NCBI RefSeq assembly: GCF_019890935.1
Contig: NZ_CP082333.1
Location: 2,134,001 to 2,198,000 of the forward strand
Reading direction: 5' to 3'
Length of the DNA: 64,000 nt
Source of the DNA: Exiguobacterium acetylicum
Lineage (GTDB): Bacteria > Bacillota > Bacilli > Exiguobacteriales > Exiguobacteriaceae
Shown: positions 33,270 through 60,236 of the stretch, in pieces
How positions within the stretch are numbered: position 1 is the stretch's first letter
How the letters are laid out: every line of letters begins with the position of its first letter
Made by a program: the position numbers and the translations under genes
The notes under the pieces: model-generated
The model's database searches: none
What the model saw: the letters and a program-made list of their open reading frames with translations, nothing else
What the model was told of the DNA's origin: nothing

Positions 33270-33284
33270 AATTTTCAGAAAATA
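33270..33284. promoter_or_regulatory. CodY box upstream of brnQ
   Basis: AATTTTCAGAAAATA matches 14 of 15 positions of the CodY consensus AATTTTCWGAAAATT and abuts the predicted -35. Confidence 0.7.
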
Positions 33285-33313
33285 TTGTTTTATTAGATTC
33301 TTCATGTTATCCT
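33285..33313 (+). promoter_or_regulatory. Promoter of the brnQ leader
   Basis: TTGTTT (33285-33290), 17-bp spacer, TATCCT (33308-33313). Start of transcription expected near 33320, nine bases before the leader-peptide ribosome site. Confidence 0.55.
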
Positions 33314-33342
33314 TAGAAAAATTCAAACAGGAGGTTTTAAAC

Positions 33343-33399
33343 ATGACATATACATCGCTTATCCAAGTACGACTGATTGTGATTAGGACCAGGGACTGA
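33343..33399 (+). CDS. Branched-chain amino acid leader peptide of brnQ (18 aa)
   Basis: MTYTSLIQVRLIVIRTRD, then TGA. Seven of 18 codons are Leu, Ile or Val, with LIVI consecutive at positions 11-14. A perfect AGGAGG (33329-33334) lies eight bases before the ATG. It is followed by hairpins and a terminator before brnQ. This is the classic layout of ribosome-mediated attenuation: stalling at the Leu/Ile/Val codons should favour readthrough. Too short for routine gene callers. Confidence 0.75.
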   Translation: MTYTSLIQVRLIVIRTRD

Positions 33400-33510
33400 A
33401 GATTCATTTCTCGATTGAGGAGATGAAGACCAGGCCCTTTTCGTCATTTCGACAAGGCGTCTGATCACACGACGCCTATCCACGCACATCGTGGATGAGG
33501 CTTTTTTTAT
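33400..33510 (+). promoter_or_regulatory. Attenuator region of brnQ
   Basis: Hairpin A: TTCATTTCTC/GAGATGAA (about 33403-33427). Hairpin B: AGGCGTC (33455-33461)/GACGCCT (33471-33477). Terminator C: GCC plus ATCCACG (33474-33484)/CGTGGAT plus GGC (33490-33501), then seven T (33502-33508). B and C share 33474-33477, so forming B shortens C and distances it from its T-run. Confidence 0.65.
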
Positions 33511-33538
33511 TGAAATTAGGATGAATGGAGGACAACAC

Positions 33539-34864
33539 ATGTTTAAGACAAAAGATACATTTGCTTTAGGATTTATGATTTTTGCATTATTTTTCGGTGC
33601 GGGTAACCTGATCTTCCCACCGGAACTCGGTGCGCTTGCGGGTTCACAGTTCTTTCCTGCCATCCTTGGCTTTATCGTGACGGGTGTTGGTCTTCCATTG
33701 CTCGGCTTACTTGCAGTTGCCTCTATCGGAGGTGGCATCAAAACACTTGCTGCACCACTCCCTCGTTTTGTAGGTGCTGCCTTGACGTTCGCACTCTATG
33801 TGGCGATCGGTCCCTTTTTCGGGATTCCGCGAACATCGGTTGTCACGTATGAGCTCGGAGTCGTACCATTTCTTGGTGCTCCCTCACAAATGACGTTGAT
33901 CATCTCATCGAGTCTCTTTTTCCTTGCCACACTTTATCTTGTACTACGACCAGGAAAATTACTTGAGATCATCGGGCGTTTCATCACACCATTATTACTG
34001 ATTGCTCTTGCTGCATTAAGCATCAGTAGCATCGTTTCGCCGCTTTCGAGTGTCGCTTCACCGAACGAGGCGTATGAGACGACTGGACAGGCATTCATTC
34101 AAGGTTTCCTTCAAGGGTACTTAACGCTTGATGCACTCGGTGCCTTGGTATTTGGTGTCGTCGTACTGCATACATTGAAAAGCCGAGGCGTTCATGAACG
34201 AACAGCACAATTTAAAGTCGTCACTCGTGCCGGAATCATCGCTGCCACTGCTTTGACTCTCGTCTATGTCGGACTTGGAATGATCGGACGTAACACATTT
34301 GCCGCCATCGGAAAAGTTGATGGTCCAACACTTCTTCAGCATTATGCAAATACTGCCTTCGGCACAATCGGTTTAGCTGTACTTGGTCTTGCGATCTTGC
34401 TTGCATGTTTGACGACATCAGTTGGTCTCGTCACCGCATTTGCAGAATATATGATGACGATTTCCAACCGTGTATCTTTAAAAGCGGCAAGTATCTTCAC
34501 GACTGCTCTTGGTCTTACGGTATCGATCGTCGGATTGCAGACATTGCTATCCATCGCCGTTCCGGTATTGATGTTCCTTTATCCAATCGTCATCGTCTTG
34601 ATCGCTTTGACATTCATGCGTCATCTGTTCCGTCGTAAGTCGGTCGTTTATCAATCAACTCTTGGTGTAACGATTTTCTTCTCATTCTGTAGTGCGTTGA
34701 ATCAACTTTCGCTTTTCCCGGGAAATCTTAAAACGTTCTATCAATCCTTGCCTTTAGTGGATCAAAGTTTAGAATGGTTATTTCCAACACTCATCGCCTT
34801 CGGTATCAGTTCATGGTTTGGACACGTTTCCAGTGCTTCTATCACACAAAAACGCGCTAGCTAG
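33539..34864 (+). CDS. brnQ: Branched-chain amino acid transport system II carrier protein
   Basis: 441 residues, about twelve membrane helices. Family N-terminus: FALGFMIFALFFGAGNLIFPPELG. BrnQ carriers import Leu, Ile and Val with Na+ (or H+). ATG 33539 has ATGGAGGAC eight bases upstream; the longer ORF runs back into the attenuator T-run. The CodY box, promoter, leader peptide and attenuator upstream indicate repression when branched-chain amino acids are ample. Confidence 0.96.
   Translation: MFKTKDTFALGFMIFALFFGAGNLIFPPELGALAGSQFFPAILGFIVTGVGLPLLGLLAVASIGGGIKTLAAPLPRFVGAALTFALYVAIGPFFGIPRTSVVTYELGVVPFLGAPSQMTLIISSSLFFLATLYLVLRPGKLLEIIGRFITPLLLIALAALSISSIVSPLSSVASPNEAYETTGQAFIQGFLQGYLTLDALGALVFGVVVLHTLKSRGVHERTAQFKVVTRAGIIAATALTLVYVGLGMIGRNTFAAIGKVDGPTLLQHYANTAFGTIGLAVLGLAILLACLTTSVGLVTAFAEYMMTISNRVSLKAASIFTTALGLTVSIVGLQTLLSIAVPVLMFLYPIVIVLIALTFMRHLFRRKSVVYQSTLGVTIFFSFCSALNQLSLFPGNLKTFYQSLPLVDQSLEWLFPTLIAFGISSWFGHVSSASITQKRAS

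Positions 34865-58964: not shown

Positions 58965-60236
<1,272 letters not shown>

Follow-up and report, generated by a model that had tools for sequence, protein, structure and literature searches.

A predicted five-segment leader-peptide attenuator upstream of brnQ in Exiguobacterium acetylicum and its relation to an element preceding PF13303 membrane protein genes

In the trp, ilv and leu genes of Escherichia coli, the position of a ribosome selects between an antiterminator and a terminator, such that starvation turns the genes on. The layout of the trp type comprises four RNA segments that pair as 1:2, as 2:3 (the antiterminator) and as 3:4 (the terminator), and it is the stalled ribosome that masks segment 1. 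In the Bacillota, leader-peptide attenuation together with control by CodY has been demonstrated for the Rli60 ilv-leu system of Listeria monocytogenes (PMC5864092), and an attenuator peptide with CodY control is supported for ilvD of Staphylococcus aureus, a species in which brnQ1 is described as being under CodY (PMC5794164). A three-hairpin attenuator (antiantiterminator, antiterminator and terminator) has been described for ilvBNC of Corynebacterium glutamicum (PMC11857589), whilst a His leader is found on hisS/hisZ in bacilli (PMC2965389). The bmrCD genes of Bacillus subtilis are subject to ribosome-mediated attenuation, for which a terminator, an antiterminator and an anti-antiterminator have been predicted (PMC4191407).

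The element considered here precedes brnQ in a stretch of 64,000 nucleotides of the E. acetylicum genome, referred to as the window (Table 1). Positions 33320-33510 very probably form a ribosome-mediated transcription attenuator that senses the charging of Leu, Ile and Val tRNAs, with a CodY-controlled promoter upstream of it. It resembles the E. coli trp, ilv and leu systems in its predicted choice of structure by ribosome position and in being ON at starvation, but has five segments, and a terminating rather than a stalled ribosome would mask segment 1. It shares with Rli60 a Bacillota host, a leader peptide with branched-chain codons, a terminator/antiterminator pair and CodY at the promoter, whereas Rli60 has four segments and a biosynthetic target (the ilvD operon). 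The S. aureus ilvD leader is similar in its Bacillota host, CodY, Leu/Ile-rich leader peptide and terminator; its target, however, is biosynthetic and its antiterminator pairs with the poly-U tail, with no 3:4/4:5 exchange (PMC5794164). The ilvB leader of C. glutamicum, MTIIRLVVVTARRLP, resembles the leader endings ..RLIVIRTRD and ..RLIILYARD, and the succession of antiantiterminator, antiterminator and terminator is likewise comparable; that system is nonetheless actinobacterial and biosynthetic, its three hairpins make one alternation fewer, and the resemblance of the peptides is probably convergent. bmrCD is another case of ribosome-mediated transcription attenuation in the Bacillota with three predicted alternative structures, but it senses ribosome-targeting antibiotics and its structures lie within the leader coding region (PMC4191407). 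T-box leaders also sense amino-acid supply, and a Clostridium orthologue of the PF13303 gene discussed below has one upstream, read as specific for Ile (AUC), but the brnQ element gave no T-box match. No report of an attenuator at brnQ or at PF13303 genes was found in the non-subscription literature searched; the mechanism class is known, whilst the wiring, targets and distribution are new as far as found.

Table 1. Positions of the attenuator features at brnQ and of associated elements (window coordinates unless a contig or locus is named)
Feature	Position	Strand	Description
CodY box (predicted)	33270-33284	+	AATTTTCAGAAAATA; 14/15 against AATTTTCWGAAAATT; top match within the 64-kb window
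Promoter-like sequence	33285-33313	+	TTGTTT-17-TATCCT, TG before the -10; read from the sequence, under the consensus-scan threshold
Shine-Dalgarno of leader ORF	33329-33334	+	AGGAGG; kept in clade A copies
Leader peptide ORF	33343-33399	+	ATG, 17 codons and TGA; encodes MTYTSLIQVRLIVIRTRD, then stop
Regulatory codons	33373-33384	+	CTG ATT GTG ATT (Leu-Ile-Val-Ile)
Segment 1	33391-33399	+	AGGGACUGA; contains the stop codon; pairs with segment 2; inner stem runs to ~33413
Segment 2	33431-33439	+	CAGGCCCUU; partner is segment 1 or 3
Segment 3	33454-33463	+	AAGGCGUCUG; partner is segment 2 or 4
Segment 4	33471-33484	+	GACGCCUAUCCACG; antiterminator with segment 3, terminator with segment 5
Segment 5 and U7 tract	33490-33508 (segment 5 proper 33490-33501)	+	CGUGGAUGAGGC; 3' half of the predicted intrinsic terminator
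brnQ	33539-34864	+	Branched-chain amino acid carrier, 441 aa; Pfam PF05525, E 1e-129; TIGR00796 above cut-off
T-box before trpS	58978-59183		Specifier UGG; 135 bits
Second attenuator copy in this genome	L064:8081-9278 = G000:C1:567083-568277	-	Before the PF13303 gene

Between the promoter and brnQ, which is followed by a DegV-family gene, lies a short translatable ORF with a Shine-Dalgarno sequence, and its codon run matches the amino acids of the regulated gene, BrnQ being a branched-chain carrier. A preliminary description of the sequence had reported this ORF, its AGGAGG site and seven Leu/Ile/Val codons, four of them consecutive, all of which are present (codons 6, 7, 9 and 11-14). Also as it had described, a terminator (33474-33501) is followed by seven T residues (33502-33508) and competes with the hairpin before it: the lower terminator arm, GCCT at 33474-33477, is at the same time the 3' end of the hairpin AGGCGTC/GACGCCT (33455-33461 and 33471-33477), such that a predicted intrinsic terminator 5' of the gene and an antiterminator are mutually exclusive. 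CTG and CTA (each 7% of Leu codons) and GTG (10% of Val codons) are rare in this genome. By itself the single brnQ leader is statistically weak and only suggestive (Leu/Ile/Val at 7/17 codons, binomial P ~0.09; fold z = -1.9), and it is taken to be beyond chance because it is conserved across the 46 copies described next.

A covariance model of the element was searched in 38 Exiguobacteriaceae genomes and found it in 35, with 11 copies before brnQ and 35 directly before a PF13303 (PTS_EIIC_2, PfoR-like) gene, 46 in total; the element is missing from exactly those three genomes that have no PF13303 gene. Named genomes that carry it include E. indicum, E. sibiricum, E. undae, E. antarcticum, E. 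aurantiacum and E. profundum. The leader ORF occurs in all 46 copies, and its C-terminus invariably reads L-I-(I/V)-(I/L)-x-x-R-D-stop. Codons -8 to -5 from the stop encode Leu, Ile, Ile/Val and Ile/Leu in 46/46, written as CTG/CTC, ATT, ATT/GTG and CTA/CTG/ATT, and Leu/Ile/Val identity survives multi-base codon changes (ATT to GTG, CTA to ATT). The two codons after the run vary, the first among Cys, Tyr, Arg, Phe and Lys and the second among Ser, Thr, Leu, Arg, Met, Lys and Ala. The Arg-Asp-stop that follows is encoded by AGGGACTGA, which doubles as the 5' arm of that first hairpin, and an RNA constraint on that arm suffices to account for its invariance. Conservation in 46 copies rules out a chance ORF. 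Relatives that keep the hairpins but have lost the ORF or its codons, which the preliminary description had named as evidence against attenuation, were looked for, and every copy keeps all of these together; of the features that it had proposed to seek by alignment, conservation of the Leu/Ile/Val codons (46/46) and covariation (in stem 2:3) were likewise seen across these copies.

The RNA does not have the classical four-segment layout of the trp type, and the 'textbook layout' first proposed for it has to be replaced by one of five segments, with one extra alternation, the stop codon within segment 1, an antiterminator formed by 3:4 and a terminator formed by 4:5. The alternating pairings 1:2, 2:3, 3:4 and 4:5 are all present in essentially all 46 copies (1:2 and 4:5 in 46/46). 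Helix 2:3, which was missing from the preliminary description, has a constant bulged C and two-sided changes (C-G/U-A and G-C/A-U), and its covariation score was reached by none of 500 shuffles. One pair is altered on both sides in helix 3:4; in helix 1:2 the outer pairs show one-sided variation only, and the sequence of the inner stem is replaced wholesale between groups with the folding retained, as judged by inspection. A plain terminator was rejected, as it leaves the conserved 2:3 and 3:4 unexplained.

The RNA ahead of the ribosome was folded for each leader codon, with a variant in which the ribosome footprint is masked; this is equilibrium and not co-transcriptional folding. With the A site at codons 1-3 of the run, 3:4 beats 2:3 in 46/46 copies (transcripts ending before segment 5). 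With the ribosome farther on, 2:3 is dominant in most copies and the terminator forms in full-length transcripts, the switch point in the model being the fourth codon of the run. Folding with and without a ribosome had been suggested as a check, and its outcome, the antiterminator for a ribosome on the first three codons of the run, is that of classical attenuation; within this model the position of the ribosome on the codons is predicted to pick the structure. With the ribosome exactly at the stop codon, folding is ambiguous in some copies in the shorter transcripts, including this brnQ, for which 2:3 reaches 0.75 in the full-length transcript and 3:4 reaches 0.98 in the one ending before segment 5. 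For full-length PF13303 copies equilibrium folding favours the terminator whether or not a ribosome is stalled, and therefore the antiterminator there would have to act kinetically.

The termination, stalling and amino-acid response that we infer for the brnQ element would operate as follows. When Leu, Ile or Val is scarce, the lead ribosome would stall on CTG-ATT-GTG-ATT and leave segment 1 free, just ahead of it, to pair with segment 2; segment 3 would then take segment 4, the base of the terminator would be lost and brnQ would be transcribed. When these amino acids are plentiful, the ribosome would get to the stop codon inside segment 1, and with segment 1 covered, segment 2 would be free for segment 3, 4:5 would pair and transcription would end at the U tract. 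The net physiology would be ON at starvation, reached via one alternation more than in trp, and because the stop codon lies inside segment 1 and there is an extra alternation, the decisive position would be that of a ribosome at or near the stop. The reading as amino-acid-sensing attenuation, put forward in the preliminary description, gains support from the conserved codons, the alternating helices and the folding model. The same switch might be read with the reversed sign, whereby a stall mainly at Ile14 would mask segment 1, give 2:3 and the terminator, and leave brnQ ON when amino acids are abundant; the switch point does fall at the fourth codon, a ribosome there already yields 2:3 in the full-length transcript, and 1:2 would form again once a ribosome at the stop is released. 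This is nevertheless unlikely, given that codons 1-3 of the run, with the rare CTG and GTG among them, lead to antitermination in 46/46 copies and that the CodY box and the T-box of an orthologue both imply induction upon starvation. For the preferred switch, ON at starvation, as for any coupled attenuator, polymerase outrunning the ribosome is a problem: RNA polymerase outpaces the lead ribosome in B. subtilis (cited in PMC9226507), though bmrCD works in this way in that species (PMC4191407).

A further long-range helix, between the regulatory codons and the linker that precedes segment 3, by which absence of translation would mean OFF as in trp, was strong only in the group of genome G020 and elsewhere no better than with shuffled leaders; it is absent in clade A brnQ and was excluded from the model. 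In the G020 group (L077-L080) this helix can extend over ~16 bp, and it may there constitute an OFF state in the absence of translation.

The preliminary description had expected T-box or CodY control of a Bacillota brnQ, and of these the CodY part stood: a predicted 14/15 CodY box, which it did not describe, lies just 5' of the promoter and would add to the attenuator. The T-box part did not, as neither a stem I with specifier loop nor a T-box sequence was found at the brnQ element, which matched nothing in Rfam beyond chance level, even at E 10. The predicted box would place brnQ in the CodY regulon, with CodY apparently acting as an extra control layer and not as an alternative to attenuation; CodY boxes (12-14/15) occur in 46/46 copies of the family, their position relative to the regulatory codons being -99 to -111. 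A second brnQ paralogue (L028 and L020-L031; 39% identical) has a CodY-like box, and no leader peptide was seen there. Most of the 22 T-boxes that the genome holds sit on aminoacyl-tRNA synthetase genes, among them apparently the Leu, Ile and Val enzymes (genes named by eye), and a tandem pair of T-boxes (G000:C1:976967-977515) lies before an apparent trpE-type gene. In the 19 Exiguobacterium genomes searched no IlvC match reached the cut-off, with 14/14 controls positive; a complete branched-chain pathway that could be regulated is therefore probably missing, which leaves uptake. This gene content suggests auxotrophy for branched-chain amino acids, and the absence of ilvC fits attenuator control of uptake.

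The 19 genomes of the genus contain two groups of BrnQ. The leader lies immediately before brnQ in clade A (nine genomes) and ~190 nt farther upstream in clade B (two genomes; L015 and L018), and the remaining genomes have none at brnQ. In clade B an additional promoter-like site lies between the terminator and brnQ, so attenuator control there may be partial, and control of brnQ in this clade may be decaying or split. That clade B brnQ seems to own a promoter past the terminator would also suit a leader transcript that serves mainly as a small RNA or small protein gene in its own right, with a constitutive terminator; this is scarcely credible, since 2:3 and 3:4 are conserved though a plain terminator does not need them, and the element and the downstream gene are inherited and lost together. 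The attenuator at brnQ is best read as a diverged duplicate, with the PF13303 gene as the ancestral, conserved target and brnQ as a secondary one, because the core of the clade B brnQ copy is nearly identical to that of the PF13303 copy, CodY box and promoter region included. The E. acetylicum genome carries exactly two copies, the second of which (Table 1) went unmentioned in the preliminary description.

The PF13303 gene, ~20-60 nt downstream of the element, encodes a 340-aa membrane protein. Its structural model (mean pLDDT 80) matches the fold of the PtsG glucose PTS EIIC (TM 0.60), and on this model it is predicted to be EIIC-like; a PDB sequence search with the protein gave no match. The supposed regulatory role of PfoR is contested (PMC4448169). 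When 398 genomes were searched across the class, one further credible match emerged (E 0.01), directly before a PF13303 orthologue, and in the second Bacilli family, that of this match, 18/26 genomes match with the same PF13303 gene as target. Leaders of the second family end in ..LIRIILRLRT-stop or read MNLIQIIEVNLLGIINDLSII-stop. In an alignment of 14 copies the four helices are each ~99% paired; 2:3 is UUGUUUGAG:CUCAAGCAA, which does not resemble GGGC-CCU:AGG-GCCC in sequence, and the folding test goes in the same direction in nearly all copies. Leaders MKTTKILSLNIILILCS, MKTTKISSLNIILILCS and MKANTIFTTSLIIILILST, each followed by a stop, precede the PF13303 orthologue in Niallia and a Bacillus MAG. 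Two Niallia RNAs form 1:2 and 3:4 with segment 1 free and 2:3 and 4:5 with a ribosome on the stop; in the Bacillus MAG copy 2:3 and 4:5 are clear with the ribosome on the stop, and 1:2 and 3:4 are not seen by minimum energy. A weak class-wide match in G292 was rejected, being terminator-like only and having no leader. At L177 (G374), before a PF13303 orthologue, MSEYFKVIILLLSYYTK.. is a candidate for an independent leader; it contains six Leu/Ile/Val residues in a row and is accompanied by a terminator-like hairpin.

The PF13303 orthologue of Clostridium sp. C8-1-8 has a T-box upstream (L221:1095-1347; E 1e-20, slightly below the Rfam gathering score), the specifier of which is read as AUC, for Ile; applied to the trpS T-box in the window, the identical rule yields UGG. 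Attenuator and T-box on one gene family are two unrelated sensors, and therefore constitute strong indirect evidence for a branched-chain signal. This bears on whether the leader senses another input, such as ribosome-targeting drugs or a general slowdown of translation, like bmrB of B. subtilis. Such ribosome-mediated attenuators are known in the Bacillota (PMC4191407) and R-D-stop at the peptide C-terminus is invariant too, but the RNA accounts for the latter (GAGGGACUGA being segment 1), Leu/Ile/Val are kept through codon changes and in unrelated leaders (MKTTKILSLNIILILCS, ..LIRIILRLRT and MNLIQIIEVNLLGIINDLSII), and of the two targets one is a branched-chain carrier and the other a gene with an Ile T-box elsewhere, all of which makes another input very improbable. 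The balance tips slightly towards an ancient Bacillales class of five-segment attenuators, absent from Rfam, that Exiguobacterium copied onto brnQ and whose main target, PF13303, is a transporter of branched-chain amino acids or a related metabolite. From their regulation only, PF13303 proteins may transport branched-chain compounds.

Leader-peptide attenuation in the Bacillota is thinly documented and mostly concerns biosynthetic operons, whereas here it would be tied to uptake in a genus without ilvC. By having the stop codon in segment 1, the five-segment wiring would be a compact and testable reversal of which ribosome position means OFF, and the element is well suited to examining whether attenuation coupled to the ribosome works in the Bacillota, where polymerase may outrun the ribosome. 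The link to PF13303 provides a concrete functional hypothesis for a broad family of membrane proteins named after PfoR.
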